Shown here one piece after another: positions 29,601 through 60,999 of a DNA stretch of 64,000 nucleotides. The position numbers were made by a program, and so were the translations under genes. The stretch comes from a virus, in IMG/VR virus record IMGVR_UViG_3300035698_026135, positions 49,330 through 113,329 of that record, one strand, 5' to 3'. The notes under the pieces were generated by a model that was not told the DNA's origin, ran no database searches, and worked only from the letters and a program-made list of their open reading frames with translations. How positions within the stretch are numbered: position 1 is the first letter of the stretch; each line of letters begins with the position of its first letter.

Positions 29601-31256
29601 ATGGACGGTCCAAATAAAGCCGCAAGCGAGAGGGTCTATAAAGAGGGACTCAAAAAAAATGACTCGATTGATATTTCTGGTTTATCAAACCCGAGAAACT
29701 TCAAAGAAGCAGAGAATTTTCTAAATAGAATTTTTACCCTCAACCAATTCGATAGAACCATTGGTGCTAACGACAATAATAAAGGTAGGCCATCTCTGTC
29801 TTTGCGCTCTTATATCAACCAAGCGAAGAATGTAATCTCTGCGTTGGAAGCAAAGGGTGGTGTTGAGAATTTTATTCTATCAAATGCTGCTTTACATATC
29901 CTGAATCCAAATATAGGTCAGGGTCGAATCGTCAATCCTGTAACGACAATCATTGGCCCTCCGCCATTCTTTGGAGGATACACGACGGACACGCTAGATG
30001 TTCCGACCTCTCATATGAATCCTGTTACGAGGAATCCTGGCGATCGACTCTTAGATCAATACAATGGAGAAGATGTCCGCATAAAAGTTGAAGCTACGAT
30101 TCCTCCGATTACCTATGAGAAAAAACTTACGTTCCCAGATGACGGCGGCAGCCCACTTGGCGGAGTTGATCAGGCCCTTGGAGCCGCAGGTCTCGGAGCA
30201 ATTTCTGATACGGCGAGCGCCATTGCAGGAGGAAAGACGCTAAGGGATAAATATAAAGAATACAACATGCAGGATGACCCTCAAGCTCAAGGGGGAAATG
30301 TTGACGGAATGTTAAATAAGGTCGTATTTGATCCTTACACTCCGGACATGAATTCTAGGTCGGAGAACATCGACGGCGTTGATATCATAAAACCTGACTA
30401 CACAAAGATATTCAACAAGCGAATCGGCGCCAGCGCTGGGAAGATGCCAGGCTGGTCAGCCGGCGGTCGAGGCTACCTCTACTATCACCCCGAACCTGAT
30501 GCGCTATTTACCCCCAAAGACTATCCATCGAAGGTAAACCTTCAAAGAAACTTGGACTCCTATTTCAACGCCTTGGATGTAGAAAACGGCTACGTCGAAG
30601 AGAAGATTCAAGACGGACAGATCGTTGTACCCTTTTGTCTGAACGACCTCAGAAAGCCAGATAGATTCCTATACTTTCGAGCTTTCCTTACAGAGTTTAG
30701 CGAAACTATCGCGGCCACTTGGACAAAGGAAGATTTCTACGGTCGTATTGATCCTGTCGGCACATATATGAATACAGCAAGAACTTTCTCTGTGGGATTC
30801 ACGGTTGTCGCAATGTCTTTGCCGGGCCTTACCACAATGTGGAAAAAGATAAATAACTTTTGTAAAATGCTCTATCCAACATACACCAACGGCATATTGT
30901 CAGCAGCGCCCGTTATTCGATTGAAGGTTGGAGATGTGTGTTCGGACGGAGACGGAAACGGATTGCCAGGATGGATTGAGAACCTTTCCATAAATTATAG
31001 CGCAGCCACCTGGGAAATCGAAGCACACAAGGCTCCAATGTCAGCAGAGATATCTTTTATGTTTCAGGTTATCCACGAAAAGAATCCGTCAGTTGATTCT
31101 GGATACAACTTCAATGTTGGTACGTTTAGAAAGATAGGTACAACCGGCGATCAAATGATTAGCGAAGACCAAAAACAAAACGAAGAGAAGGACGACAACT
31201 CAAAGGGAACCACCAATACGGAAAATCCCGATAAAGCAAATAGGGAGCCAGTTTAA
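29601..31256 (+). CDS. Baseplate tail-tube cap/initiator-like protein
   Basis: The 551-residue product has an unrecognised N-terminal half and a C-terminal domain (about 350-520) with the pattern of tube-initiator and tube-cap proteins: FLTEFSETI, FYGRIDPVGTYMNTARTFSV, then W-K-K-I-N and LYPTY, APVIRLKVGDV and a final strand region ending EISFMFQVIHEKNP. This is the tail-tube-like fold found in T4 gp48/gp54 and equivalents. It lies 3 nt after the tape measure gene and overlaps the LysM gene by 1 nt, a usual baseplate-hub order. Confidence 0.55.
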   Translation: MDGPNKAASERVYKEGLKKNDSIDISGLSNPRNFKEAENFLNRIFTLNQFDRTIGANDNNKGRPSLSLRSYINQAKNVISALEAKGGVENFILSNAALHILNPNIGQGRIVNPVTTIIGPPPFFGGYTTDTLDVPTSHMNPVTRNPGDRLLDQYNGEDVRIKVEATIPPITYEKKLTFPDDGGSPLGGVDQALGAAGLGAISDTASAIAGGKTLRDKYKEYNMQDDPQAQGGNVDGMLNKVVFDPYTPDMNSRSENIDGVDIIKPDYTKIFNKRIGASAGKMPGWSAGGRGYLYYHPEPDALFTPKDYPSKVNLQRNLDSYFNALDVENGYVEEKIQDGQIVVPFCLNDLRKPDRFLYFRAFLTEFSETIAATWTKEDFYGRIDPVGTYMNTARTFSVGFTVVAMSLPGLTTMWKKINNFCKMLYPTYTNGILSAAPVIRLKVGDVCSDGDGNGLPGWIENLSINYSAATWEIEAHKAPMSAEISFMFQVIHEKNPSVDSGYNFNVGTFRKIGTTGDQMISEDQKQNEEKDDNSKGTTNTENPDKANREPV

Positions 31257-31525
31257 TGAGTAGATATTATAGATCAGCCGGTAAGGCGGAAGGTGGATAT
31301 AAAATTCCAAGATTTGTTTATGTTGATTTTTCTGACATTCCAGGAAAAGAATTCATGATTCAAGAAGGAGATCGATTGGACGTAGTTGCTCAACAGGTGT
31401 ATGGCGATCCCAACCTGTGGAAGGCAATACTTTTATACAACAATCTAGGATATATGTTCGAACTGAACCCTGGAGACATAATAAAATTACCTATTGACAT
31501 TGAGTTAGTCCTCGAAAGAATTTAA
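31256..31525 (+). CDS. LysM-type baseplate protein, T4 gp53-like
   Basis: The 89-residue product contains a LysM-like core: EGDRLDVVAQQVYGDPNLWK followed by ILLYNNLGYMFELNPGDIIKLP. T4 gp53 and many phage baseplate proteins use such a domain between tube cap and hub or wedge. The start overlaps the previous stop (TAATG), and the stop is adjacent to the amidase-hub gene. Confidence 0.72.
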   Translation: MSRYYRSAGKAEGGYKIPRFVYVDFSDIPGKEFMIQEGDRLDVVAQQVYGDPNLWKAILLYNNLGYMFELNPGDIIKLPIDIELVLERI

Positions 31526-34330
31526 ATGGGAATAGTTATAGAAGGAAAAAGGTTTGAAGTCAGCGGACTTAGGACAAAAGACTTTGAAGAAACCGGATTA
31601 GACTTTGATCCGATCAAGTTTCCAAGGGCAAATAAGTCCCGAAAGAACGTGAAGGTAGAACTGATTGTTCTGCATTGGACGGGCGGAGAGGGAAGTTCTG
31701 CCGAACGCGTTAGAAACACTCTTCAAAGACGGTCTGCTGGTGCCCACTTTTTTGTGGATATCGATGGCACGGTATATCAATATGTAGATACCGCTCGCGC
31801 ATCGGACCATGCGATGTATTCCAAGAACAGTATAGGAATAGAGATTCAAAACCCTGGTGTAGTCGGTGGTCTCGTAAAGGGAGACAAGAGAAGGAATGCA
31901 TATAAAACAACGCTGCTCGGTGCGAAAAGAACTTTTTATACTTTCACTCCCGAACAAGAGGAAGCAACAAAGAAATTATCAAGCTTCCTGTGTCACAAAT
32001 ATAATATACCGTACACGGTTCCAAAGAATGAAGACGGATCCCTTTATACGGAAGTTTTAGACAAAACATACGTGAGGGGATATAGCGGAATTTGCGGTCA
32101 CTATCATATAAGTAAAAAGGGAAAGTTAGACCCAGGAACAGATCTCCTGAATGCCATCTTGAAAAACCCTCCTCCTGGAGTTGAAGCAAATCAAGTCGCG
32201 TATTCAGCAGCAGCAGCTGAAGAAAACAACAACAGCCGTGCAGAAGAAAGAAAGAAGGCGAAAGCCGCGAAAAAATTAAGAGAAAGATATGCGGCCATGA
32301 CCAATAACCGCACGGCTCCGCCAGCCGAAGACGGTCAAAAATTTAAATATCTCGTCCTTGCCGGAGCTGCTGAGTTCGACCCAAATACAGAAGTGGAGGT
32401 AAGCGCAAGCCAAAAGTTGGTAGCTGGACCCCAAGACCGTTTTATCTCACAGCTTGAGGCCCTACGCACCGTGTCGAACGTAGAGCTTGCTGAGGCGGTT
32501 CCTGTATTGCAAGTTATGGCATACGATGAATCCGGAGAGTTTGTGAATTTAAACAAATTGATTTTCTCTAAGCCAACGTTTCACAACATCTTTGAGTCTC
32601 AAGATATTGTCCCAGGAATCAATCCAGAAAGACCCCTGGCTTCTATTGTATCTTTCGAGGAGACTATAGATGAACCCGCCGCTGGTGGTGCATACGGAAT
32701 ATCAAAAGCCAAGCTTATGATAAAGATTCACAATCCCTCTCTTGTTCATGTCGATCATCCAACAGGAAAGTACCTCTCCTACATGTTGGATGTCGGCCTA
32801 CCGCTAAGAATAAGGTTTGGCACCACGCATCCCAATCTAACCGACAAAAGATTGAAAGAAGCCTTCAGTTGGGTTGAGAAAGATTTTATAATTTCTCACC
32901 ATAACGCCACCGTCAATAATGATCTTACCGTGGACGCGACATTTAATATGACTATTGCCACACAAAAATTAATGCAGACATTCTATGTAGGACAATATAT
33001 ACCGCTGGACTCTATTTCTTCTGACGACATTGACGCAAGCTCTAAAGGAAACGAGGAGACGGCCTCCGACGTTAAAAATACTTTCAAGCTGGCAAACAGT
33101 AGAGATGAAGGCGTGGGCGTAGGATATAATAAATCTGCCGAAACTGGAACAATATATTCCACACTCCAGGGCGCTGTCTCCAATCTTCCCAAGATTATAA
33201 TCAGCGACAAAATGCAGCCAAAAAGAATACAGAACTCAATAAATGCCCTTCAGACCCTTCAGGCAAAACTTCTAACAAAGACGTTTGATATAATGCTCAA
33301 AGAGTGGTCATATAAATTTGAGATGCTCAAGGTAAAATATCCGGCGATCAACTTAGGGCCACTCTTGGAAAAAATGTTAAAGAAGGATCTGGGAAGGGTC
33401 CTACAAGAGATCACAACAAAAAAGATAAACATAGGCGACCGATACTCTACGGATGGCGCCCAAACAGCATCCGCCAAAGTTGAGTTTGTTTTTGGAAACT
33501 TTAACCAAAATGCAGGAGGATTCTGGGCGGGGAAACCGATAAGTTCTTTCCCCATTAATGTCGAAGCACTATTGTCTTACATTCGAACAAACCGCGACGT
33601 TGGAAAATTCAACGGAAATATAAATGCATTCATGCAGAAGTTGGCATACATCATTGGAGATGAAGCCAACTTTACCGCAAAGCCGGTAAGCGAAATGACC
33701 TTCTTTGAAAGGTTGGCCGAAGAAGAAGGAATAAAGCCCGTAATTAGCACTCCGTCGATAAAATATTCTTTATACAAAAGTTCGGATGCGAGCTTCCCGA
33801 AGTGGATATTTTATATTTTTGATGCCAAGCAAAGGGTTATAGAATCCGATGCTGCTGTTGACGGAGTAAGTCAACTCAACAAGGGCAAGGTTAGGTCGGT
33901 ACTTCTTGAGAGATCTATTCCCTTTGTTGAGCCAGGATCAGAAAGAACTTTGATAAAATCAATGTCCGCGACGACTATCGACGGCGACAACATCGGAACT
34001 CAAGCATTAATTAAAGCGAACGTAGCCAATCTCAGTGCTCGCCAAATAGACGACGCCTCTTTGAAGGCGTTGTCAACCGGAATTTCATCGGAGTTTATTC
34101 ACGGCAATGCGCACAACACCAGCCAAATTATTAGACACGACCCGCTCATTCTTCCTTTACAAATGACGATGGAACATTATAATATGGTAACCACAGAGAT
34201 GTTTAGTCCAATGTATGTATTTTTCCCACTTGCTCGTTATTCTAGAATCTATAGGATAATGCAAGTCGTTCACAAGATCGAGAACGGAACCGCCTCCACC
34301 AGTATGTCACTTATCGTTCAAGACACGTAG
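31526..34330 (+). CDS. Baseplate hub protein with N-terminal N-acetylmuramoyl-L-alanine amidase
   Basis: The 934-residue protein begins with an Amidase_2-type domain (about residues 38-215): LIVLHWTGG with zinc ligand H50, AHFFVDIDGTVYQYVD, IGIEIQNPG, and GHYHISKKGKLDPG with H192 and D202. This would cleave the stem peptide from peptidoglycan during DNA entry. Residues ~225-270 are a charged linker. The remaining ~660 residues look like a hub (gp27/gp5-region) protein with a segment around PLRIRFGTTHPNLTDKRL. T4 instead uses a lysozyme in gp5. The gene is directly coupled to the LysM gene. Confidence 0.8.
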   Translation: MGIVIEGKRFEVSGLRTKDFEETGLDFDPIKFPRANKSRKNVKVELIVLHWTGGEGSSAERVRNTLQRRSAGAHFFVDIDGTVYQYVDTARASDHAMYSKNSIGIEIQNPGVVGGLVKGDKRRNAYKTTLLGAKRTFYTFTPEQEEATKKLSSFLCHKYNIPYTVPKNEDGSLYTEVLDKTYVRGYSGICGHYHISKKGKLDPGTDLLNAILKNPPPGVEANQVAYSAAAAEENNNSRAEERKKAKAAKKLRERYAAMTNNRTAPPAEDGQKFKYLVLAGAAEFDPNTEVEVSASQKLVAGPQDRFISQLEALRTVSNVELAEAVPVLQVMAYDESGEFVNLNKLIFSKPTFHNIFESQDIVPGINPERPLASIVSFEETIDEPAAGGAYGISKAKLMIKIHNPSLVHVDHPTGKYLSYMLDVGLPLRIRFGTTHPNLTDKRLKEAFSWVEKDFIISHHNATVNNDLTVDATFNMTIATQKLMQTFYVGQYIPLDSISSDDIDASSKGNEETASDVKNTFKLANSRDEGVGVGYNKSAETGTIYSTLQGAVSNLPKIIISDKMQPKRIQNSINALQTLQAKLLTKTFDIMLKEWSYKFEMLKVKYPAINLGPLLEKMLKKDLGRVLQEITTKKINIGDRYSTDGAQTASAKVEFVFGNFNQNAGGFWAGKPISSFPINVEALLSYIRTNRDVGKFNGNINAFMQKLAYIIGDEANFTAKPVSEMTFFERLAEEEGIKPVISTPSIKYSLYKSSDASFPKWIFYIFDAKQRVIESDAAVDGVSQLNKGKVRSVLLERSIPFVEPGSERTLIKSMSATTIDGDNIGTQALIKANVANLSARQIDDASLKALSTGISSEFIHGNAHNTSQIIRHDPLILPLQMTMEHYNMVTTEMFSPMYVFFPLARYSRIYRIMQVVHKIENGTASTSMSLIVQDT

Positions 34331-35488
34331 ATGCACTTCTATAAGACTCTATCCAACAACAACGAGGATAGTTATGCCCTAGATGGGAAGTTCTATAGTT
34401 CAAGCGCGCCCTCGATTGAGAGCCTTGGCCTAGAGCATAGTTGCATGTGGAACAAGAAGAATAACAAAGCGATAGAGAAGTCTGTTGACTTGATGGACAT
34501 TTTTAACTTCTATAAGATATCTGAGCTGTCTGAGCTTGCCTCCCTGTTTTCGTGTGAGGACTTCGCTCCGTACAACGAATCAAAGAGTAGAATAAAATCC
34601 ATCGCAGGTTCCTATAGGTGTCCCGGCCTCAACATGAAAGGTTATGGGGTTGATCAAATCATTCCTCCTAGATTTCTTAGGACCTTCGCCGAAAGAGAGA
34701 CGGAAGTTCTGGCCTGTGCATACAGCTTCTTGAGAACTAAACACTGGTTCGAGAAAGTATTTTCTTTCTTTTCTGGTTTCGACTCCATGAATGTGTTGAA
34801 GGATTTGAAATATTCTATAGACACAAAGATGGGCCAACAGAATATAGACATAGCCTGGCAAGCAAACTTCAGATTAAAATCCTCTCCTGGATACTTCAAT
34901 CTTTTCAACATGAGAAAACAGGACAGACATATCATCGTACCTCAAGACGATGAAAGCTTTTTGTTCTATGCAGACTTTCGACAGTTTGAAATGAGAACAT
35001 TCTTCATGCTCCATCCTGAAATCAATATGGATTTTTCAAATTTGGAAATCTATACAGAGATGGCTAAGAAACTTGGGCTCTCCAGAGACGAAGCCAAGCT
35101 TCAAATGATAGCTTATAGCTACGGACAGAAGAATGAACGCCTAGACAAAGCATTCAAGAGGAATGTATTGCTTGACGGCATTCACGATGAGCTTTATATT
35201 TGGGAGAGATATCCTGTTGTGGTCAGAGAGAACGATGCAGCAAAGGTTCACACCATAGTCCAGACCATATCTCAATACTTTTATATCGAAAAGCTTCACA
35301 AATTGTTTAAACTGCTAGAAAACAAAGAATCTAAATTCTTGTACCCTCATCACGATAGTGTTATTATATCAATGAAGAAGAGCGAAGTTGATCTGATACC
35401 ACAAATAAAAGCCATACTTGAGGATGATGTATATAAAGTTCAAATGGCTGTTGGCAAAGACCTATCAAACCTAAAGGACATAGAATGA
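34331..35488 (+). CDS. Miniature family-A DNA polymerase-like protein
   Basis: The 385-residue protein carries all three Pol I-type palm/finger motifs in order. Motif A is YADFRQFEMR with D215, Q218, E220 and R222 (Pol I: DYSQIELR). Motif B is R252-x3-K256-x3-I260-x3-Y264-G265 (SRDEAKLQMIAYSYGQ), matching Pol I R754/K758/F762/Y766 but with Ile at the F762 position. Motif C is PHHDSVIIS with H341-D342. A preceding NFRLKSSPGYFNLFNMRKQD resembles the segment before motif A. There is no 3'-5' or 5'-3' exonuclease and the thumb is short. It starts 0 nt after the hub gene and is ATGA-coupled to the next gene. Confidence 0.75.
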   Translation: MHFYKTLSNNNEDSYALDGKFYSSSAPSIESLGLEHSCMWNKKNNKAIEKSVDLMDIFNFYKISELSELASLFSCEDFAPYNESKSRIKSIAGSYRCPGLNMKGYGVDQIIPPRFLRTFAERETEVLACAYSFLRTKHWFEKVFSFFSGFDSMNVLKDLKYSIDTKMGQQNIDIAWQANFRLKSSPGYFNLFNMRKQDRHIIVPQDDESFLFYADFRQFEMRTFFMLHPEINMDFSNLEIYTEMAKKLGLSRDEAKLQMIAYSYGQKNERLDKAFKRNVLLDGIHDELYIWERYPVVVRENDAAKVHTIVQTISQYFYIEKLHKLFKLLENKESKFLYPHHDSVIISMKKSEVDLIPQIKAILEDDVYKVQMAVGKDLSNLKDIE

Positions 35489-35963: not shown

Positions 35964-36578
35964 ATGAAAAAAGAGCACTTAAAAGAGATTGAGAAAAATA
36001 GAATTGTCGTATCGAAACTGATTGACAAAGTTGTTACATCAGATCGAAAAGAAAAGATTGTTGCCATGCTGGAGGACGATGACTTCGGAGCCCTCCTCTT
36101 TACGGCGCCTGCTTCATCCAAAAAGGAATATCATTACGCGTGGCCAGGAGGATTGGTCAGCCATAGCCTAAATGTTTATAAAAACCTCAGAAAATTAAAC
36201 ACGGCATTCGAATGTGGATTCACGGAAGAAGAAATGTTTATTGGAGGATTCTTTCACGACCTCGGCAAAGCCTGCGATTCTACGCTGAAAAATCCTCAAT
36301 ATGTTCCTACCACCGAGGACTGGAAGCTAAGGAAGGGTTGGTTTTATGAATATTCTAAAGAGGGAGTATATTTGACAAATCATCTAAGGAGCCTGTATGT
36401 TTTTCAACACTTTGGAATTAGGTTAACCGCAGAGGAATATCAAGCAGTTTTTTTAAATGATATGCATTATTTGCAATCAAATTCCGACTTCAAGCTGAAA
36501 GAATGTAGTTTGGCGTTAATGGTGCACACGGCTGATCGCTGGGCACTTTCTATGGAAGTAGCCGAAAAACAACTATAA
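35964..36578 (+). CDS. HD-domain phosphohydrolase
   Basis: The 204-residue product has an HD metal-binding domain: GGLVSHSLNVYKNL (H67), GGFFHDLGK (H98-D99) and a later HTADRW for the last ligand. Such enzymes hydrolyse phosphate esters in nucleotides or RNA ends; this arrangement resembles the HD part of YhaM-like exonucleases, but no OB domain is present. The substrate cannot be read from sequence. AAAAGGAAAC precedes ATG 35964. Confidence 0.75.
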   Translation: MKKEHLKEIEKNRIVVSKLIDKVVTSDRKEKIVAMLEDDDFGALLFTAPASSKKEYHYAWPGGLVSHSLNVYKNLRKLNTAFECGFTEEEMFIGGFFHDLGKACDSTLKNPQYVPTTEDWKLRKGWFYEYSKEGVYLTNHLRSLYVFQHFGIRLTAEEYQAVFLNDMHYLQSNSDFKLKECSLALMVHTADRWALSMEVAEKQL

Positions 36579-36587
36579 GTATTATGG

Positions 36588-37478
36588 ATGAAAAAAATCT
36601 ATAAGACATATTCGCTCTCTTGTAATAATGAGGTATTCTATATAGGAAGAACGGAACAGTTGTTAAAAAACAGATTAAAAAGACATGTCGTAGACGCCTT
36701 TCTTAAAATTGATGATAAATGGAAATATACTTATCGCAATGCAAATAAGGTAAGAAAACTAACAAACAATAATATAGGAATAAAAATTTCTCTTTTAAAA
36801 GAATATCCCTCATTAAACGAAGCGTTAGAAGGAGAAAAAGAACTCATCTCCTCTTATATAGAAAAAGGAGTCCGGCTTACAAACCACACTGCCGGAGGAG
36901 ATGGCTCTTTAGGGTTAAAGCATAGTGAAGAAACGAAGAAAAAGATTAGCAAAAATTCTTTAAATTGGTGGAAAAATAATCCTGAAGCAAGAAAGTTTTC
37001 CAAAGAGCACAAAGACAATCTATCAAAAGCCGGAAAAGGAAGAATTTTCTCCAAGGAACATATAGAAAATATGAAAAATGCAAAACATCTTTCGGGAAAA
37101 GATAATCCCAAATCTAAAAAAGTGGTACAATATTCTCTGGCGGGCAAGAAGCTGACCACATTTGATTCAATAGGCGAAGCTGCTCGGATCGCGGGACTCG
37201 CAGCTCCCAATATTATCGAAGCCTCCAGAAACAAAAGAAGGACTGCCGGTGGTTTTGTGTGGCGACTTGTTGGAGAGTCATTTGATTATATTCCTTACAA
37301 GAGGCCAACCAAGGCAGTACATCAGTTTGATCTGGATGGAAATCTTATAAAAGAATATACCTCAATAAAAAAGGCCGGCGAACAAAATGGAGTATTTGGA
37401 ACTACTATCTCCCTAGTCTGCAAAGGTAAACAGAAAACGGCCGGAGGTTTTATGTGGAAATACGCTTCCGAAGACTAA
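36588..37478 (+). CDS. GIY-YIG homing endonuclease with NUMOD DNA-binding modules
   Basis: The 296-residue product begins with a GIY-YIG-type nuclease (EVFYIGRTEQLLKNRLKRH, residues ~16-35; Glu in NHTAGGDGSLG region follows), then several NUMOD3-like repeats (LKHSEETKKKISK; RIFSKEHIENMKNAK), and two copies of a NUMOD1-like helix-turn-helix unit: VVQYSLAGKKLTTFDSIGEA with TAGGFVWRL, and AVHQFDLDGNLIKEYTSI with TAGGFMWKY. This is a free-standing mobile gene like T4 Seg proteins. It lies between the HD gene and gene 37501. ATG 36588 is preferred to an out-of-frame ATG at 36584. Confidence 0.9.
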   Translation: MKKIYKTYSLSCNNEVFYIGRTEQLLKNRLKRHVVDAFLKIDDKWKYTYRNANKVRKLTNNNIGIKISLLKEYPSLNEALEGEKELISSYIEKGVRLTNHTAGGDGSLGLKHSEETKKKISKNSLNWWKNNPEARKFSKEHKDNLSKAGKGRIFSKEHIENMKNAKHLSGKDNPKSKKVVQYSLAGKKLTTFDSIGEAARIAGLAAPNIIEASRNKRRTAGGFVWRLVGESFDYIPYKRPTKAVHQFDLDGNLIKEYTSIKKAGEQNGVFGTTISLVCKGKQKTAGGFMWKYASED

Positions 37479-38474: not shown

Positions 38475-38891
38475 ATGAAGTTCAGAGAACAGATTTTATT
38501 AGGCACGTTTTTGGAATCTATGGAAGTTGACACTCCGGTGTTGCGCGACATAGTAGAGAACTTTAGCGTCAGCACAGTCTTTGTGTTTGACACAACGGAG
38601 GACGCTGGCTGTCTGATCACTTTCAATATTCCCAAGGATGAGAACGACCACAGAGTAAAGGGATTCAAAGAGAAGTATAAAAATACCGTAATGCTTCACA
38701 GAAACAAAGAGACCAATACCCTATTCACAATCAACAGCTTAAACAAAATCATCTTCAACCAATGCGGTTCTAGGAATCCCTCACACAAAGTAGATTGGAG
38801 CGACTATAAAAGCTCTGTCGTGCTTCTGGGTGGAGACAAACAAGCAAAACAAATAAAGATAGACCTTAGAGAAATAATAGACTTAATGTAA
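38475..38891 (+). CDS. Conserved-looking small protein upstream of gp32
   Basis: The 138-residue product is mixed alpha/beta with FTINSLNKIIFNQ and VDWSDYKSSVVLLGG; I have the impression of a T4-type conserved hypothetical but cannot name it. RegA was considered and does not fit. No ribosome site is evident before ATG 38475; the upstream region is AT-rich. Confidence 0.6.
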   Translation: MKFREQILLGTFLESMEVDTPVLRDIVENFSVSTVFVFDTTEDAGCLITFNIPKDENDHRVKGFKEKYKNTVMLHRNKETNTLFTINSLNKIIFNQCGSRNPSHKVDWSDYKSSVVLLGGDKQAKQIKIDLREIIDLM

Positions 38892-38928: not shown

Positions 38929-39792
38929 ATGGTACTAAAAATCAATATTGAAAAAATGAAAGAGAAGATGGCGGGATATGATAATCCTAAAGACTATAAC
39001 AACCAACAGAGTAAAATCGTTAAATTCACGGAGGTCGGAGAATATCTCGTCCGACCCGTCATGTATCCGCATAGCGCGGACCCAGAGGACGATCCATTCA
39101 AGGAGGTCGATGTCCATTGGATAGATGGAGTGGGAAGCTTCTATTGCCCACAAGACAATCGAGCAGAGAAGTGTCACATTTGTGATTTCGCATGGGCTCA
39201 AGCCAAAGCGCTTGACGACAAAGAGGCACGAAAGAAGTGGTACAAGCTTCTGCCTACTCGCCACATTTTGATTCCGGTCCTCGTTCGAGGCCAAGAAGAA
39301 GAGGGCGTAAAGTTTTTGCGCCTGTATACCTCGAAGACGAAAGCGTCTGCGAAACATATTCAGCTCATGAAGTGGGCAATGGATCCTGAGACCAATAATT
39401 TCATGGACCCAGATTCAGGATATGATATCAAACTAACCTATGAAGAGGTTGAGCCCGCCATGCGCAAACAACTCAATGGAGCAAAGATTAAATTTGGAGG
39501 AATGGAGCTTGCTCGAAAAACTTCTAAGTTCGGCAAGAAGGGAGAGTACGAAGCATTTGTGAAAGCAATCCCCAAGGTTGAGGAAGAGATTTTTCCACAA
39601 ACGTCCACGGACGATTCAAAAGTTGCACTGGAGAAGTTGGCCACGCGCCTCGGAAACCTGCAACCGAAACCCACCACTGCCGAGATGAACGCGTCCGATG
39701 GAACGGGAGTCTCTGTTCCAACGCCAACAGACAGCGATGCCTCTGTTGATGAAGATGACATCATGTCCACCCTTAGCGACCTAGGACTTTAG
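38929..39792 (+). CDS. Single-stranded DNA-binding protein, T4 gp32 family
   Basis: gp32 coats ssDNA in replication and recombination and recruits UvsX/helicase partners. This 287-residue protein (T4 gp32 is 301) has a basic N-terminus, a zinc-binding subdomain with H63, C73, C82, C85 (VHWIDGVG, FYCPQDNRAEKCHIC), an OB-like core, and a disordered linker ending in an acidic tail DEDDIMSTLSDLGL used for protein contacts. AAAGGAG lies 10 nt before the ATG. Confidence 0.9.
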   Translation: MVLKINIEKMKEKMAGYDNPKDYNNQQSKIVKFTEVGEYLVRPVMYPHSADPEDDPFKEVDVHWIDGVGSFYCPQDNRAEKCHICDFAWAQAKALDDKEARKKWYKLLPTRHILIPVLVRGQEEEGVKFLRLYTSKTKASAKHIQLMKWAMDPETNNFMDPDSGYDIKLTYEEVEPAMRKQLNGAKIKFGGMELARKTSKFGKKGEYEAFVKAIPKVEEEIFPQTSTDDSKVALEKLATRLGNLQPKPTTAEMNASDGTGVSVPTPTDSDASVDEDDIMSTLSDLGL

Positions 39793-40256
39793 TGAGCGGC
39801 CCCAAAAACTTTGTCATCAAAGATACAGACTCATCTCTTGATGGCACGGTGGTTATCTGCGGCGAGGCACATGATGTATTAGTTCCTCGCCCTGGGGGCT
39901 TTTCGAGGAAGGTTGTAATGCGACCAGTGGAAAGCTTTTTTGTAAACGACCACGACCACGACAGCGAAGTGACGGGTCTGTGGGTGGAAGATATCAACGT
40001 AGGAACCGCAGAAGAAATTTTTGAAACCACGACACCAGGCATTCATATCAAAACGATAACAGTAGATTTGGAAACGACACAAGTCACGGTTGTTGAGTAT
40101 GATGATCGCCTACAGGTTGCGGCACTGATGTCCGGCGATGTAGCTTATACGTCATATAAAGAACTCAAACATCTTGGTTCGATTAAGACCGCCCTCGATG
40201 ATTGTTATGCCCCAGAAGATGTTATTCATTTTATTGATATAGTGAGGGAACTATGA
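39792..40256 (+). CDS. Protein between gp32 and UvsX, function unknown
   Basis: The 154-residue product starts at GTG 39792, overlapping the gp32 stop by one base (TAGTG), and overlaps UvsX by ATGA. It has an alternating beta-strand pattern, with a His/Asp cluster NDHDHDSE at about residues 52-59. No family is recognised. Its coupling suggests a recombination or replication accessory; T4 gp59 is all-helical and does not match. Confidence 0.6.
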   Translation: MSGPKNFVIKDTDSSLDGTVVICGEAHDVLVPRPGGFSRKVVMRPVESFFVNDHDHDSEVTGLWVEDINVGTAEEIFETTTPGIHIKTITVDLETTQVTVVEYDDRLQVAALMSGDVAYTSYKELKHLGSIKTALDDCYAPEDVIHFIDIVREL

Positions 40257-41353
40257 GCGATTTTGCAAAAGAGTTAATGGCCGATGTAAATAAAACGTTT
40301 GGATACGAGATATCTTCTCGCATGGAAGACGGTTCACCATCGGACGTAGAGACTTTCATCTCAACGGGATCCACCCTATTGGACTATATTGTCTCGAATC
40401 AAAGAGGCGGAGGCATCCCTGTAGGAAAAGTTACAGAAATCTCTGGGCTTGAAGGAACAGGAAAGACTCTTTTAGCGATGCAGATCTGTGCAAACACACA
40501 AAAGATGGGAGGCCTTCCTATTTTTATTGATACCGAGAATGCCTTTCAGACAGATTTTGCTAAACGTGTTGGACTTGATCCCACAAAGAACTTTCTATAC
40601 GCCGCGCCTGTGACTGTGGAAGATGTTTTCAAATATATCTTTGCAGTCCTCAAGAAGCTGGACGACAAAAAATCCTCAACAGATTATAAATTTGTAACCG
40701 TCGTATGGGATTCGGTAGCGGCAACGCCGCCTGCAATCGATATCTCGGAAGAAAATCCAGACCCAACATCGAGCATGGCCCTGAAGCCAAGGATTCTCTC
40801 TAAGAATATCTCTACGTTGCTTCGTTCGACCGGACGAGCAAAGGTAGCACTCCTCTTCCTAAATCAGCTTAGGACCAACCTGAAGGCAACTCCATGGATG
40901 GATCAATACGTGACCCCCGGAGGTAAGGCTATTCCGTTTGCTTCCTCCGTAAGAGTGAGACTTTTAAGTAAAGGAAAAGTCAAAGCAGGCGATCAGGTTG
41001 TTGGAATAAACACCAGAGCGAAATGTGTAAAGACTCGCTTCGGACCCCCTCATCGCGAATGCATTTTTCCCATCTACTTCACTCACGGAGTTGACGATAC
41101 AGAAAGCATTCTAACCCTTCTCGTGGACAATAAAACAATTACAAAGAGGGCCGGAGGATCTGCGGGTAACAAATACGCATTCAAAGACGAACCTAAAGAA
41201 GCCGGCCTGAACAGAGTTGAATTCAAAAAGAGAATCAAAAACGACAAAGCCGCAGTCGAAAAGGTCGCAGACCTAGTGGAGGAAGCCATGAAGACATCTA
41301 TGATCAACCCAGAGGAGATCTCGATAGAGATAGTGGAAGATTCTGAGGTCTAA
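40253..41353 (+). CDS. uvsX: UvsX, RecA-family recombinase
   Basis: This strand-exchange ATPase drives recombination-dependent replication. It has 366 residues (T4 UvsX 391). Walker A is GLEGTGKT at 65-72, the catalytic Glu region is FIDTENAF (~91-98), Walker B is FVTVVWDS (D153), and L2-region residues LLFLNQLRTNLKATPWMDQY and TPGGKAIPFASSVRVRL follow, all UvsX-typical. Translationally coupled to the gene before it by ATGA and to the gene after it by a 1-nt overlap. Confidence 0.93.
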   Translation: MSDFAKELMADVNKTFGYEISSRMEDGSPSDVETFISTGSTLLDYIVSNQRGGGIPVGKVTEISGLEGTGKTLLAMQICANTQKMGGLPIFIDTENAFQTDFAKRVGLDPTKNFLYAAPVTVEDVFKYIFAVLKKLDDKKSSTDYKFVTVVWDSVAATPPAIDISEENPDPTSSMALKPRILSKNISTLLRSTGRAKVALLFLNQLRTNLKATPWMDQYVTPGGKAIPFASSVRVRLLSKGKVKAGDQVVGINTRAKCVKTRFGPPHRECIFPIYFTHGVDDTESILTLLVDNKTITKRAGGSAGNKYAFKDEPKEAGLNRVEFKKRIKNDKAAVEKVADLVEEAMKTSMINPEEISIEIVEDSEV

Positions 41354-42204: not shown

Positions 42205-42585
42205 ATGGGCAAGACAGAGTTTATACAAGATCAAGCTGTGATTAGATTCATCAACCTGATAAAAGATGATACGAAAGAATTTGACTTTGTAGACATCATG
42301 CTCTTTCTTCCAGATGCCCTACGTCACTTCATGCACTTTTACTCTCAGACAATCAAGGGCAATGGTCGCTTTATTGGTTGCAACTTCTTTTATTGCGGAG
42401 ACACCTTGCGCTACAGGATCGAACTGATCTTCACCAACTCTACTGTGGAAGTAAGACCAATGTGGGTCCAGCGATTAGGTGCAGCCGTTTCCCTACACTA
42501 TGATTTCATTAGGCCGATTCATATCAGCGCAGATCTATTTGGCGTCCAGCCCAAATTCGAAAACTTAACAAAGGAAATAAAATGA
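42205..42585 (+). CDS. Small protein upstream of HldD, function unknown
   Basis: The 126-residue product is compact and strand-rich with many aromatic residues (FMHFYSQTIKGNGRFIGCNF). It overlaps the epimerase gene by ATGA. No family recognised. No good ribosome site; CGATTTAAA abuts the ATG. Confidence 0.6.
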   Translation: MGKTEFIQDQAVIRFINLIKDDTKEFDFVDIMLFLPDALRHFMHFYSQTIKGNGRFIGCNFFYCGDTLRYRIELIFTNSTVEVRPMWVQRLGAAVSLHYDFIRPIHISADLFGVQPKFENLTKEIK

Positions 42586-43553
42586 TAATAGTTACAGGCG
42601 GCGCAGGTATGATTGGTAGCAATATAGCCAAGGTTCTTTGCGATAAAGGAGAGCACGTCGTAATAGTAGACGACTTTTCTAGCAATCCAGACAAATTTAA
42701 GAATCTTCTAAGTTTTGATTTCATGGAGTATATCGATAAGAAAGATTTTCTAAATGTCCTCATTGAACACGGCGCCACCAAATTTCATCCGGAACTAACG
42801 GCAGTGATTCATAATGGTGCGATATCATCGACGACTGCTGACGATGGCGCTGCGGTGATGAAAAATAATTACGAATATTCGAAAACGCTAGCCGCCTATT
42901 GCTCTATGCACGACGTTCAGTTTGTTTATGCTTCGAGCGCATCCGTATATGGAAACAATACAAACACACAAGAGAAAAGAGAGAATGAACACCCGCTCAA
43001 TCTCTATGCTTTTTCTAAAGCTTTATTTGATCGTCACCACCCAGGATTTGGTTTTAAAAATCAGGTTGTTGGACTTAGATACTTCAATGTCTATGGGCCT
43101 AACGAGTTTCACAAAAAGGGCCAGTCGAGTCCTGTCCTTCGATATTATGACGAAGTTAAGTCTGGAGTTTCCCCACGGGTTTATTCTGGCGATGACGGAC
43201 AAGGCAATGACGCAATTGATTATAGTCGAGACTTCGTTCACGTCGAGGATGTCGTTAAAGTAGTTTTTTGGTTTCTTGATAACCCCTCAATCTCCGGAAT
43301 ATACAATGTCGGAACTGGAAATAGTTCAAAGTTTGAATATATCGCGAGCCTTGTTACGAAGTGGTTTTGCGAAAAGGATCCTGATCATGACCCAAGAATA
43401 AAGAAGGTTCCAATGCCAGAGAATGTAAAGGGCGGCTCTCAACCCTTTACTCGCGCCAACATATCCAAACTAAGAAACGCAGGCTATAAAGATAAATTTT
43501 TGTCGATCGAAGAAGGAGTAGAGAAATATCTCGATTGGCTAAACGCCCAATGA
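42582..43553 (+). CDS. hldD: ADP-L-glycero-D-manno-heptose 6-epimerase (HldD-like)
   Basis: The bacterial enzyme epimerises ADP-D,D-heptose to ADP-L,D-heptose for the LPS inner core. This 323-residue SDR protein has the NAD-binding TGGAGMIGSN at ~5-14 and follows HldD throughout: IVDDFSSNPDKFKNL, HNGAISSTT, NNYEYSKTLAAYC, YASSASVYG, the catalytic YAFSK (Tyr-x3-Lys), LRYFNVYGP, RDFVHVEDVVKV, and the end KLRNAGYKDKFLSIEEGV-EKY. Catalytic residues look intact. It is an auxiliary metabolic gene within the replication module, suggesting a Gram-negative host; it may remodel host or sibling-receptor LPS. Confidence 0.9.
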   Translation: MIIVTGGAGMIGSNIAKVLCDKGEHVVIVDDFSSNPDKFKNLLSFDFMEYIDKKDFLNVLIEHGATKFHPELTAVIHNGAISSTTADDGAAVMKNNYEYSKTLAAYCSMHDVQFVYASSASVYGNNTNTQEKRENEHPLNLYAFSKALFDRHHPGFGFKNQVVGLRYFNVYGPNEFHKKGQSSPVLRYYDEVKSGVSPRVYSGDDGQGNDAIDYSRDFVHVEDVVKVVFWFLDNPSISGIYNVGTGNSSKFEYIASLVTKWFCEKDPDHDPRIKKVPMPENVKGGSQPFTRANISKLRNAGYKDKFLSIEEGVEKYLDWLNAQ

Positions 43554-44518
43554 GAACTCTGCTTCTGGATGGCACAAATATCTTCATCCAACACTATGCT
43601 GCGAACCCAACCACAGACATAAACGGAACACCCGCTGGCGGCGTCGTAGGATCCCTCAATGCCATCAGGGCAATCATGAAGAAGGTTCGACCCAACAAGG
43701 TCATCTTTGTTTGGGATGGCCCTAATGGTTCAATTCAGAAACGCAGACTCTTCAGCGAATATAAAGAGGGCCGACGAAACAGAACCATTGTGGGTCGCCA
43801 CTACCAATTCAAAGACGTCAATGCAGCAATGGAAAATAAAAAATGGCAAACCCTACAGCTCAGGAATTTGATTGACGCCCTTCCGGTATGTCAGATCATC
43901 ACCGATTCCATCGAAGCAGACGATGCAATAGCGTATATTGTAAACCAGGCTGAAAGCTTCGGTCACACATCAAATATTATTGCAACATGCGACAAAGACT
44001 TCTATCAACTGATCGGAGATAAGACTGTCGTCTATAACCCTTCGACAAAAAATCTAATCACCGAAAACTCCCTAGTAGAAAAGACTGGCTACCACCCAAA
44101 CAACTGGCTCTTCTTTAAGTCTATCAATGGAGACAGGTCTGATAATGTTGGTGGAGTGAAGGGCGTCGGACCAAAAACAATCGCAAAACTTTTTGACGTT
44201 TCGGATGGCGGTGCTAGACTGACACCAGAAACTATCCGAGAAGTATATACAAATTGTACAGACGATAAGCTTAAGAAAAAGTACAAAAAACTTTTCGATA
44301 ACATCGATCTAATAGAGAGAAACTGGAAACTTATGTCATTAGAAGAGGTTATGATTGATCTAGGTTCTAGACAAAAAATCTTTTCAATTATAGAAAATTT
44401 TATTCCGGTAATGAACAAAACCCAGTTCTATGTAGAGTTAGTGAAATTAGGCGGGCTCGGCATACCATCGTATTTCTTTGATGAATTTCATATCTTAAAA
44501 AACAAAAACCACCACTAG
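43550..44518 (+). CDS. rnh: RNase H / 5'-3' exonuclease, T4 Rnh (FEN-1) family
   Basis: The enzyme removes RNA primers and flaps on the lagging strand. I start it at ATG 43550 (ATGA overlap with hldD), giving 322 residues (T4 Rnh 305), rather than TTG 43535. Metal-binding acidic residues are visible: LLLDGTNIF near the N-terminus, FVWDGP, SIEADDAIAYI, ATCDKDFYQL, and SINGDRSDNVGGVKGVGPKT, whose last part is the helix-hairpin-helix of FEN enzymes. Confidence 0.9.
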   Translation: MRTLLLDGTNIFIQHYAANPTTDINGTPAGGVVGSLNAIRAIMKKVRPNKVIFVWDGPNGSIQKRRLFSEYKEGRRNRTIVGRHYQFKDVNAAMENKKWQTLQLRNLIDALPVCQIITDSIEADDAIAYIVNQAESFGHTSNIIATCDKDFYQLIGDKTVVYNPSTKNLITENSLVEKTGYHPNNWLFFKSINGDRSDNVGGVKGVGPKTIAKLFDVSDGGARLTPETIREVYTNCTDDKLKKKYKKLFDNIDLIERNWKLMSLEEVMIDLGSRQKIFSIIENFIPVMNKTQFYVELVKLGGLGIPSYFFDEFHILKNKNHH

Positions 44519-44529
44519 AGGAGAACATT

Positions 44530-46968
44530 GTGACCGCAACCATAGCCATGCAAAAACCATCATCCATTTCTAGTTCTACTCCAAAAGAGAACGGCTTTAC
44601 GCCAAACTTCGAAGAGAGAATTGTCCAAGCTATCTTGAGCGACCCACAGTTCGGAGAACAGATGATTGAGGTCCTTGACCCCAAACATTTTGACATGCAA
44701 TACACCAGCAAGATTGCTGAAATTATTCTGGACTATTTCAAAAAATATGAATGTATTCCATCCCTATCTTTACTCTCCTCTATTTGTATTCAGAGTATTA
44801 CGGTTCCGATACTCAAAAAAGAGTGTGCTTCATTCTTGGATAGGATCCAAACCAAACCCCTAAACGGAGATTTGGAATACGTTAAAGAAGAGTCTCTATC
44901 ATTCTTTCGAACCCAGGCCGTGAAGTGGACGCTGGTAGAAGATGTCATTCCAAAGCTGCGGAATAAAAACTTAGATGAAATTCTTCCCGTACTAACGGAA
45001 GCAATCAATAGAGGAACAAACCGCGACGTTGGATACAATTACAACAAAGATCAGGAGTTGCGCTTTGTGGATAATCAGCTCGCCAAAGTCCCATCGCCAT
45101 GGCCATGCTTCAATAAAGTGCTCGGTGGTGGTTGGGAAGGTGGACGGCTTGCTACAATTATTGGTGCATCGGGGTGTCATAGAAAAGGTACAAAAATTCT
45201 TAATTATGCCGGAGATTTCATAGACGTAGAGGATATTAAAGTTGGAGACTTTCTTATGGGGCCAGACTCGAAACCAAGAAGGGTCTGCGATCTCCATCGA
45301 GGAAAGCAACAAATGGTAGAAATTAATCCTAAAAGGGGAGATTCTTTTGTTGTAAATCTAGATCATATCCTGAGTTTGCGCAGGTTAAGTAGGACAAAAA
45401 AACAATCGCACTTGAATATTTCGGTAAGAGACTTTTTGACAAAGACCGATTATTTTAAGACTCATTGTAAACTTTATCGCCCAGAGGGTATCGAATTTAA
45501 AAAAGAGATAACGGAATTTAAAATAACTCCCTACATGCTTGGAGTGATGCTTGGAGATGGATGCCTAACGAACCACAGAGTTGAAATAACCAGCGAATCA
45601 GAAGAGGTTGTAAACGAAGTATATAAAGAGGCTGATAGATTTAATATAGGCGTTAGTATTCACGAAAAGGAAGATAGTGCCGCTAGCGGATATTATTTTA
45701 CAAGCAATCGAAAGCATAATAATCCAATAGTTTTAGAGTTGTCGAAATTGGGATTGATCGGAAAAAAATCTGGGGACAAATTTATCCCCAAAGATTATAA
45801 ACTATCCTCCAGGGAAAATAGGTTAGACCTCCTTGCCGGACTTTTGGATACCGATGGAAGCCTCGATAAATCCGGGTATGAAATCACAAGCAAGTCTTTG
45901 CTATTAGCCAAGGATATAAAGTTTTTAGCCCAAAGTCTAGGATTTTCTGCAACACTGAATAATAAGTGGGTCAATGAAGATATTTATTATAGAGTTCATA
46001 TTAATGGTTTTTGCGAAACTGTTCCCGTAAAAATAAAGTATAAAAAATCACCAGGCAGAAAGCAGATTAAAAATCATTTGATTACTGGATTTGAAACTAA
46101 GTTGTTGGACGAAGATTTTTATTACGGGATTGAGGTCGATGAAGACAGCCTATATGTAATGGAAGATTTTTTTGTCTGCCACAATTCCGGGAAAAGTCAC
46201 AGCCTAGTCAACATAGGCGCAGCTGCCTTGTTGTCTAAGGGCGAAGGAGGAGCAGGTAGGACAGTAGTGCATTATACTCTTGAGCTTAGCGAAATCGACG
46301 TGGCCCGAAGGTATGACGCCTGTATTACTGGGGTGGAAATTAACCACATCCCGCAAAATAGAGAGCTTGTCTTGGCATCCCTCAAAAAGAAGCTTCCCGA
46401 AGGATGTAAGTTGCGGATCAAGGGCTACCCTATGAACAGCGCTTCCGTCCAAACAATCAAGGCACACCTCTCCCGCCTTCGCCTTAACGATGTTGTCCCC
46501 GACATTATCATCATTGATTACGGCGACCTTCTGGCGTCTGGAGAAAAAGAAGAGCGTCATCGCTGCGCGCAAAACTGGACGAGTATGAAATCCATGGCCC
46601 AAGAATTAGAGATCCCTGTCATCACAGCGACACAAACAAACAGGTCTGGATATGAATCGGAAGTCATTACCGTCGATCAGGTATCGGAAGACATTAGAAA
46701 AATTAACCATTCTGATATTATCATTACGATGGCCCGAAATTCTGAACAAAAAAGCTCAGGCATCGGCAAGATGCATTTTGCAAAGAATCGCCAAGGAGAG
46801 GATGGACAAATTTTCGCCTACTCAATTATGACGGCGAAGTCTAAGATTCTGGCTTACGAAATCACGGAGGAAGTTCAGGATAAGATTGATGCGAAAAACC
46901 TAGAGTTAAAGCAAGGCCAACAAAAATCAAAGATTGATGCACTGACTGACTACCTGAAGAAGAATTGA
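44530..46968 (+). CDS. Replicative DNA helicase, T4 gp41/DnaB family, interrupted by an intein
   Basis: The hexameric helicase unwinds the fork and works with primase. GTG 44530 is preceded by GAGGAG. Extein 1 (residues 1-215) holds the DnaB-type N-terminal domain and ends IIGASG; extein 2 begins S553 GKSHS, so splicing reconstitutes the Walker A GASGSGKS. Later motifs are VVHYTLELSE, IIIIDYGDLL (Walker B), TATQTNRS and the arginine-finger-region MHFAKNRQGEDG. Spliced length is about 475 residues, equal to T4 gp41 (475). Confidence 0.94.
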   Translation: MTATIAMQKPSSISSSTPKENGFTPNFEERIVQAILSDPQFGEQMIEVLDPKHFDMQYTSKIAEIILDYFKKYECIPSLSLLSSICIQSITVPILKKECASFLDRIQTKPLNGDLEYVKEESLSFFRTQAVKWTLVEDVIPKLRNKNLDEILPVLTEAINRGTNRDVGYNYNKDQELRFVDNQLAKVPSPWPCFNKVLGGGWEGGRLATIIGASGCHRKGTKILNYAGDFIDVEDIKVGDFLMGPDSKPRRVCDLHRGKQQMVEINPKRGDSFVVNLDHILSLRRLSRTKKQSHLNISVRDFLTKTDYFKTHCKLYRPEGIEFKKEITEFKITPYMLGVMLGDGCLTNHRVEITSESEEVVNEVYKEADRFNIGVSIHEKEDSAASGYYFTSNRKHNNPIVLELSKLGLIGKKSGDKFIPKDYKLSSRENRLDLLAGLLDTDGSLDKSGYEITSKSLLLAKDIKFLAQSLGFSATLNNKWVNEDIYYRVHINGFCETVPVKIKYKKSPGRKQIKNHLITGFETKLLDEDFYYGIEVDEDSLYVMEDFFVCHNSGKSHSLVNIGAAALLSKGEGGAGRTVVHYTLELSEIDVARRYDACITGVEINHIPQNRELVLASLKKKLPEGCKLRIKGYPMNSASVQTIKAHLSRLRLNDVVPDIIIIDYGDLLASGEKEERHRCAQNWTSMKSMAQELEIPVITATQTNRSGYESEVITVDQVSEDIRKINHSDIIITMARNSEQKSSGIGKMHFAKNRQGEDGQIFAYSIMTAKSKILAYEITEEVQDKIDAKNLELKQGQQKSKIDALTDYLKKN
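45175..46185 (+). mobile_element. Intein with LAGLIDADG endonuclease in the helicase P-loop
   Basis: Spans residues 216-552 (337 residues). It starts with Cys (CHRKGTKILNYAG), has a block-B-like LDHILSLRR, dodecapeptide motifs YMLGVMLGDG and LLAGLLDTDG, and ends FFVCHN before Ser+1, the canonical terminus. The P-loop is a known insertion site for DnaB-type inteins. Confidence 0.94.
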
Positions 46969-55854: not shown

Positions 55855-57414
55855 GTGATTTTAAAATCAGAAAAAGATTTAAGGCAAGTTTCTGAAAAAA
55901 TAAATATCAAAGAGGGTATAGAATTAGCCTACAGGCTAGAAGGGGAGCTGCGGCTTTGTCGTAACGGCATAGGACTTGCAGCTCCTCAGATAGGAATCTA
56001 TAAGCGCGTAATTGTAGTTCGCGCCAAAGAATACATCCACTTCATAAACCCGGAGATCATAGAGAAGACAGGACCCTTCATTCACAAGAATGAAGGGTGT
56101 CTTTCGTTTCCGGGCCAGTGGATCAACACGCTGCGATATAAAAACGTAGTCGTCAAAGACGATTTACACGGCACGACGAGCTTTAGTCAAATGGCATCGT
56201 TGGTAGCGCAGCATGAATGTTTGCCACATGAATCGATTATCCACACGGAAGATGGAGATAAAACAATTAAAGAAATTTTTGAAAAAAAATGGAAGGGAAA
56301 AGTTCTTTCTTGGAATGAGGAATTATTTGATTTTGAATATAAAAAAATTATAGGATGGTCTAAAAATAGAAACGAAAATAAGAAAAAGTGGCTAAGGCTT
56401 AAGTTTTCTAGGACGGGACCAAACAAGTCTCTACTCTGCACAGAGGACCATAGGTGCTTTTATGTAAAGGACATCTTAAATCCAGAGAGCGGCATGGCCG
56501 TATCAGCCGCAAAAGATATGAATGATAAATTTCTCGTCAGGTTGCCGACTGACAGGAAGTCTAACAACGAACACGGATTATATAATTCGCAACAAATTTC
56601 GGCGCTGTACGGGTTATTGCTTGGAGATATGTGTATATCTCGCCGAGGCGAACTCGTCTCAAACCACGGCGAACCACAGAAAGAATACAGTGTTTTCAAG
56701 GCAGATTATTTTGGGGGAGTCACAAGAAAGGGGTATTCTGGATTCAGAAAAGAATATAGCAACGTTTGTTTCCATGGCCCAATAACAGAACAAACAAAAC
56801 TTCTTCGAGAAAGAATCTATTCGCCTAATAAACAAATTGATTTTATAGCAAACAAAATGACTCCCATATCTTTAGCTTTTTGGTATATGGATGATGGAAG
56901 CCTTGCAACAAATGGCGGATTCAATTTGCATACAGAAGGTTTTGACAAAAAGCAAAACGAAATTCTGAGAGATATTGTGTTTAATTTATTCAAAATAAAG
57001 TGTCAGGTAAATCAGAGAAAGGTTCGAAATAATAACAAATATTATTTAAAATTCAAAAAAACAGAAGAGTCAAAATTTTTTAAAATAATCTCAAAATATA
57101 TTCACCCATCGATGAGATATAAATTGAGAGATGATATTTATGAAAAGTTTGAAAAAAAACACTTTGACTATAAAAAGATTCCCTTTTCGTGCAAAAAAAT
57201 AACAGAGATTAGGCATTTAAAAAATAAAGAAAGCTGTTTGTTCGATTTAGAAATAGAGGGAAATCATAATTTTATAGCAAACAATTCCTTAGTCCACAAT
57301 TGTGATCACTTAGATGGGATATTATTCTTTGATAGAGAGGTTCCCGAAGCTTATGATCCATGCATTTGCGACAGCGGGAAGAAGTTTAGATTTTGTTGCT
57401 ATAAAAAACTATAA
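55855..57414 (+). CDS. def: Peptide deformylase with intein and C-terminal SEC-C zinc motif
   Basis: Deformylase removes the formyl group from nascent proteins. Extein 1 (residues 1-121) has motif 1 GIGLAAPQIG, motif 2 EGCLSFP (metal Cys82) and ends QHE. Extein 2 begins C483 DHLDG, so splicing restores motif 3 HECDHLDG with both metal histidines. After ~20 more residues comes CICDSGKKFRFCC, a SEC-C-type zinc knuckle as on SecA, not normally attached to deformylases. Start GTG 55855. Spliced length is about 158 residues. The enzyme is inactive unless the intein excises. Confidence 0.92.
   Translation: MILKSEKDLRQVSEKINIKEGIELAYRLEGELRLCRNGIGLAAPQIGIYKRVIVVRAKEYIHFINPEIIEKTGPFIHKNEGCLSFPGQWINTLRYKNVVVKDDLHGTTSFSQMASLVAQHECLPHESIIHTEDGDKTIKEIFEKKWKGKVLSWNEELFDFEYKKIIGWSKNRNENKKKWLRLKFSRTGPNKSLLCTEDHRCFYVKDILNPESGMAVSAAKDMNDKFLVRLPTDRKSNNEHGLYNSQQISALYGLLLGDMCISRRGELVSNHGEPQKEYSVFKADYFGGVTRKGYSGFRKEYSNVCFHGPITEQTKLLRERIYSPNKQIDFIANKMTPISLAFWYMDDGSLATNGGFNLHTEGFDKKQNEILRDIVFNLFKIKCQVNQRKVRNNNKYYLKFKKTEESKFFKIISKYIHPSMRYKLRDDIYEKFEKKHFDYKKIPFSCKKITEIRHLKNKESCLFDLEIEGNHNFIANNSLVHNCDHLDGILFFDREVPEAYDPCICDSGKKFRFCCYKKL
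56218..57300 (+). mobile_element. Intein with LAGLIDADG endonuclease in peptide deformylase
   Basis: Spans residues 122-482 (361 residues). It starts with Cys (CLPHESIIHTEDGD), has block-B-like CTEDHRCF, dodecapeptide-like ALYGLLLGDMC and AFWYMDDGS, and ends NNSLVHN before Cys+1. Canonical splice residues are all present. It is more A/T-rich and lysine-rich than the exteins, consistent with separate origin. Confidence 0.92.
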
Positions 57415-60856: not shown

Positions 60857-60929
60857 TCCTAGGTAGCTCAGATGGAAGAGCACTGATCTTGTAAGTCAGC
60901 GGTCGCCGGTTCGAAGCCGGCTCTGGGAT
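60857..60929 (+). tRNA. tRNA-Thr (anticodon TGT)
   Basis: A full cloverleaf can be drawn: acceptor TCCTAGG (60857-60863) with TCTGGGA (60922-60928), D-stem GCTC/GAGC, anticodon stem CTGAT/GTCAG with loop CTTGTAA and anticodon TGT at 60890-60892, and T-arm GCCGG-TTCGAAG-CCGGC. The 3' CCA is not encoded. It reads ACA (and related Thr) codons. Confidence 0.95.
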
Positions 60930-60999
60930 CTAAGATACAAACAATAGGACGAAACCCCTTGACGATCGTCGCCCCATACCCTAAGCTCTAGGAGTCGCC

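Follow-up and report, generated by a model that had tools for sequence, protein, structure and literature searches.

A predicted thumbless relative of DNA polymerase I at the junction between the structural and replication genes of a large phage lineage

The question raised by this locus is why a phage that encodes a complete replicative polymerase should carry a second, miniature one directly behind its tail genes. The window, i.e., the whole stretch of DNA analysed here, spans 64 kb at the right-hand end of a virus record of 113,329 bp. It contains an intact open reading frame of 385 codons (34331..35488; this and all other window features with coordinates in this form are on the + strand), here named mini-PolA, whose ATG directly abuts the stop codon of the tail hub gene. 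An earlier note had read it as a family-A DNA polymerase with motifs A, B and C packed into 385 residues and "inserted" after the hub gene.

Using the mini-PolA protein alone as a query, zero relatives were obtained in phage records, IMG/VR and GTDB species genomes, and the tail hub or RecA alone recovered no near relative. The match to the Pfam profile DNA_pol_A (PF00476; 11 bits, E 0.21) is below the curated 34.3 bits, and hence mini-PolA is tied to the Pol I superfamily via an intermediate phage family. This family was reached not via mini-PolA itself but via the gene for the baseplate-type protein upstream (29601..31256), which in tblastn matched Flavobacterium phage immuto, Microcystis phage Mel-JY01 and a 484-kb uncultured phage (LR756508). 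All three phages have a small PolA-like gene after the tail hub, annotated as "DNA polymerase family A" in immuto; the other two genes are located at L003:13791-15017 and L004:13986-15344. The 323-aa gene that follows the immuto hub was rejected as the counterpart; its product looks like a small tail protein, and the mini-PolA gene is the next one. A scan of IMG/VR with an alignment of the three genes yielded at least 579 relatives; the 80 best were retained.

A family profile built without the window protein matches mini-PolA with an E value of 5.2e-8 among all window ORFs, none of which gives another significant match. Consistent with this, hhalign of mini-PolA against the family gives a probability of 93.6% (E 2e-7) and keeps motifs A, B and C in register across 192 columns, and the independent contig L185 encodes a protein that is 47% identical to mini-PolA over 388 columns. 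The earlier assignment to family A is therefore upheld, and mini-PolA is a genuine, heavily reduced relative of bacterial DNA polymerase I. Weak matches to PHROG 13544 (E 0.0012), a family without assigned function, and to 1r7l (E 0.81), at noise level, were set aside. Pattern scans for further close relatives returned L185 alone, which was already known. Between mini-PolA and L185, nonsynonymous differences (pN 0.34) are far below synonymous ones (pS 0.90, saturated), which fits purifying selection; selection thus appears to keep the protein.

Which of the residues required by Pol I have been retained? Alignment to E. coli Pol I gives the following equivalences (Pol I = mini-PolA): R668 = R181, D705 = D215, Q708 = Q218, E710 = E220, R754 = R252, K758 = K256, F762 = I260, Y766 = Y264, Q849 = Q311, H881 = H341, D882 = D342 and E883 = S343. 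The motif residues that test for family A (D705, K758, Y766 and D882) are all present. R181 and the segment following it, RLKSSPGYFNLFNMRKQD (34871..34924), correspond to the T-GR motif of Pol I and include the block QANFRLKSSPGYFNLFNM, which is identical in L185. Motif A reads D215-FRQFEMR (34973..34996), the motif B helix runs from R252 via K256 and I260 to Y264-G (35084..35125), Q311 (35261..35263) is invariant across all classes of relatives described below, and motif C is H341-D342-S343 (35351..35359). D215, E220, K256, I260, Y264, Q311, H341 and D342 are common to mini-PolA and L185, and both have His at the N845 position. Thus, the earlier motif list holds for D215/E220, K256-Y264 and H341-D342, and for the Ile at the F762 equivalent, but not for R252 as a fixed residue, which is His in L185; it also lacked the conserved R181 and Q311.

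The predicted structure is supporting rather than independent evidence, as the alignment behind the model included family members. The palm-fingers blocks are mostly modelled with pLDDT 82-98, with good confidence for most of residues 190-270 and 310-385 and low confidence elsewhere, including the first ~105-110 residues. The palm/finger geometry, singled out beforehand as the point on which the polymerase reading could fail, is found in the model: motif A lies at a strand end, motif B in a helix and motif C at a strand-strand turn. Foldseek matches the model to Pol I with prob 1.00 and E 2e-7; the TM score is only 0.31-0.46 because the N-terminus is poorly modelled, and all 50 structure matches listed are family-A polymerases. 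The model of the family member L062 (pLDDT 94.9, pTM 0.91) matches Klenow with a TM score of 0.78.

The earlier note had also seen neither a standard thumb nor an exonuclease domain, and both observations are confirmed. The family profile aligns with Klenow (E 1.1e-7) while skipping the entire thumb segment (Klenow chain positions 231-327), neither the Pol I alignment nor the family profile shows an equivalent of the Klenow thumb ahead of R181, and the thumb is likewise absent from all relatives of the same slot. For a 3'-5' exonuclease, neither catalytic acids nor a fold are detectable in mini-PolA, whose residues 1-110 are poorly modelled. An I/V-P anchor near residue 111 is the sole N-terminal feature common with the family, and the first ~105 residues, modelled with low confidence, may hold a thumb replacement.

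Three active-site classes can be told apart among the relatives. Of the 124 members of the classical class, essentially all have His in place of E710, Tyr in place of H881 and Phe at position 762. The second class, of ~546 aa (L163:4820-6463, L164:3554-5191, L165:2983-4620, also L169-L184), has canonical E710, R754 and H881-D882-S883 and His at 762; it is also thumbless, the Pfam profile DNA_pol_A matching only from profile position 110. The third class consists of mini-PolA and L185, with E710, H881-D882-S883, Ile at 762, His at 845 and the smallest fingers among the classes. The equivalents of D705, D882, K758, Y766, Q849 and R668 are kept in all three. A joint profile of mini-PolA and L185 scores the 546-aa class with a median of 30 bits, versus 20 bits for the classical class. 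It should be noted that the 546-aa proteins have an N-terminal region of ~290 aa and are not obviously within the published divPolA1 set. In the palm tree, the three classes lie on one side of a branch that has the seven canonical PolAs on the other (support 100/98); the mutual order of the classes is not settled, and the mini-PolA branch is very long. The tree does not reject a grouping of mini-PolA with canonical PolA (AU p 0.295), and hence an independent reduction from canonical PolA, but such an origin would make the common slot a coincidence.

Given the retained equivalents of D705, D882, K758, Y766, R668 and Q849, mini-PolA is likely to be active. The D705 and D882 equivalents form the critical pair in the Tt72 polymerase, which naturally has Ser at position 883 (PMC9324360), and Ser in place of E883 is therefore compatible with activity. 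The replacement of N845 by His and F762 by Ile, together with the drift at R754, may mean that catalysis in this lineage is weak or specialised. The same drift at the three positions, the loss of thumb and exonuclease, and the replacement of E710 and H881 throughout the classical members could also indicate a weak or dead polymerase that is retained as a structural or regulatory part of the replisome, for instance by binding primer ends. We regard this as improbable, as the pair that is critical in the Tt72 polymerase (PMC9324360) is conserved in all three classes, and K758, Y766, Q849 and R668 likewise. Another conceivable role is that of a non-standard nucleotidyl transferase engaged in RNA synthesis, priming or end addition: the thumb is absent, RNA polymerase activity has been raised for the thumbless divPolA2 proteins (PMC11348598), and the steric-gate residue E710 is changed to His in classical divPolA1. 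However, mini-PolA retains this sugar gate, which points to dNTP use, it has no match to divPolA2, and a DnaG-type zinc-ribbon ORF is present elsewhere in the same record, upstream of the window, making this role very unlikely.

The genomic surroundings bear on both the origin and the function of the gene. Upstream of mini-PolA, the baseplate-type gene is followed by genes for a gp53-like baseplate wedge protein (31256..31525) and the tail hub with an N-terminal amidase domain (31526..34330; 36% to a 930-aa gene of L185). Downstream are genes for an HD-domain protein (35964..36578; 63% identical in L185), a conserved 138-aa cluster protein (38475..38891), a single-strand DNA-binding protein (SSB; 38929..39792), RecA (40253..41353), a stand-alone 5'-3' exonuclease of the Pol I N-terminal type (43535..44518) and an intein-containing DnaB helicase (44530..46968). 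This order, baseplate/hub, mini-PolA, SSB, RecA, 5' nuclease and DnaB, matches that of the family, and the genes of L185 correspond one by one, in the same order, to those of the window from baseplate through RecA. Among 124 family members, many of whose loci are shortened by contig ends, the gene always lies on the same strand as its neighbours. Its upstream neighbours are the hub (73 members), the gp53-like gene (60) and a small tail gene (79); those downstream are the 138-aa protein (115), SSB (97), RecA (91), the 5'-3' exonuclease (71) and DnaB (58). When loci were anchored on RecA, mini-PolA was present in 36 of the 37 with at least 6 kb upstream, the exception having just 6.1 kb. The shared gene order means that mini-PolA is not an insertion, contrary to the earlier wording, and synteny rules out a recent one. 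Hundreds of aquatic phages carry the family at this position, and the slot is a standing junction between the structural and replication modules of a large phage lineage.

Several other features of the region were noted. The N-terminal domain of the hub is of the amidase/endolysin type, and its immuto equivalent is annotated as a carboxypeptidase. A homing-endonuclease-like gene, GIY-YIG type by sequence, lies just downstream of mini-PolA (36588-37478), with a 228-aa relative at the same place in L185. The replication cluster also includes, after RecA and before the 5'-3' exonuclease, a sugar-nucleotide epimerase gene (42582-43553). The DnaB helicase and a peptide deformylase (55855-57414) both contain inteins bearing LAGLIDADG endonuclease domains, and a single tRNA-Thr (tgt; 60857-60930) lies within ~1.8 kb without long ORFs.

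The position directly behind the hub could be taken to mean that mini-PolA is a virion protein, coupled to the tail hub and delivered with the DNA, all the more as no base separates its start codon from the stop codon of the hub and, in L185, the gene starts 8 bases after the hub ORF. Phage genes routinely abut, however, a separate tail gene intervenes in most family members, and the same strand continues into the replication genes; we consider a virion role highly improbable.

As the earlier note had pointed out, a complete DnaE, the replicative polymerase of the window phage (50694..54200), accompanies mini-PolA. In the other records checked, the replicase differs: most classical carriers have PolB, immuto has a 778-aa PolA, and the huge phage has PolB plus DnaE; among carriers of the 546-aa class, DnaE was found in four of five and PolB in none of the five. 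In the second-class carriers L178, L179 and L182 (records G012, G013 and G015), the DnaE coding sequence is divided among two or three ORFs, a pattern suggestive of interruption by inteins, introns or homing genes. That mini-PolA is kept alike beside DnaE, PolB or a full PolA shows it to be accessory, whichever enzyme replicates the genome. The active-site class might even track the replicase, Glu/His occurring with DnaE and His/Tyr mostly with PolB or PolA, so that the accessory enzyme would be adapted to the replisome, with the filling of lagging-strand gaps as its dedicated function; we think this doubtful. Some carrier records are near-copies of one another, and the link between class and replicase thus rests on few independent events.

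What, then, might mini-PolA do? The loss of thumb and proofreading in a Pol I enzyme predicts short, distributive synthesis. On balance, we favour, by a modest degree of belief, an active, distributive gap-filling accessory polymerase that together with a stand-alone 5' nuclease constitutes a "split Pol I". A Pol I palm with shortened fingers would be catalytically competent for short stretches of DNA synthesis and would fill gaps left by Okazaki-primer removal or recombination, in cooperation with the phage's own 5'-3' exonuclease, SSB and RecA, while DnaE would carry out bulk replication. The clustering of SSB, RecA and a stand-alone 5' nuclease makes this the most economical reading. We infer the activity, the low processivity, the gap-filling role and the nuclease partnership alike. 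The nuclease was present in all 15 carrier records checked, although proximity alone is no proof of partnership, as this type of nuclease is common in phages. RecA and SSB in the same cluster could also serve a recombination-repair or translesion polymerase, which would extend RecA-made D-loops or bypass lesions and have no part in Okazaki maturation. The absence of proofreading and the altered residue at 762 are in line with such a role, and the fold search with the family model placed both Pol theta and Pol nu among its best matches. However, mini-PolA lacks the thumbs and special inserts of Pol theta/nu, and the 5' nuclease is as constantly present as RecA, leaving repair or translesion an unlikely, though credible, alternative to the split Pol I.

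If active, mini-PolA would rank with the smallest family-A polymerase cores found in nature and would do its work thumbless. In that case it would also show that a dedicated accessory polymerase is retained throughout a large lineage of aquatic phages whose replicase varies among families A, B and C. The natural E710/H881 swaps provide a ready-made test of the residues needed by a thumbless Pol I core.

Compared with known systems, mini-PolA resembles the Klenow part of E. coli Pol I and T7-type PolA in motifs A, B and C, the R668 and Q849 equivalents and the fold, but differs from them in having neither a thumb nor an active 3'-5' exonuclease and in the 5' nuclease being a separate gene. Like divPolA2 of barbaviruses and ICP1 (AUR84708, PHROG 4756), which has a variable gene neighbourhood (PMC11348598), it is a thumbless family-A palm alongside another polymerase; membership of divPolA2 was rejected, as there is no sequence match to AUR84708 and no PHROG 4756 match. 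With the 546-aa class it shares the missing thumb, E710, K758, Y766 and H881-D882-S883, the downstream RecA-exonuclease-DnaB order (seen in all three 546-aa loci checked) and mostly DnaE as the replicase, whereas that class has a longer N-terminus, His at 762 and a conserved N845.

The closest known system is divPolA1, which Yutin et al. 2024 (PMC11348598) described in 14 phages (immuto and 13 others): its thumb is truncated, its exonuclease is inactivated, and a regular polymerase, of family A, B or C, is encoded besides it. Our literature search found no paper on divPolA1 besides this one and its preprint. Mini-PolA shares with divPolA1 the slot, the downstream replication order, the small family-A palm, the loss of the thumb (one of the traits that define divPolA1), the lack of a working exonuclease and the presence of a regular polymerase. 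It differs in that identity is just 15-22%, no degenerate exonuclease fold is recognisable, and the fingers between the Y766 and Q849 equivalents span 47 residues, versus 62 in L062 of the divPolA1 family. In addition, it keeps the E710 and H881 equivalents (E220, H341) and has Ile at 762, unlike the sampled classical members, which all have His/Tyr, a feature outside the published divPolA1 definition. In summary, mini-PolA is a divPolA1-type accessory phage polymerase, in an E/H-Ile762 variant, and not a new kind, as divPolA1 was published in 2024; new here are the larger family, with at least 579 relatives from one scan, and the three active-site classes in one slot.
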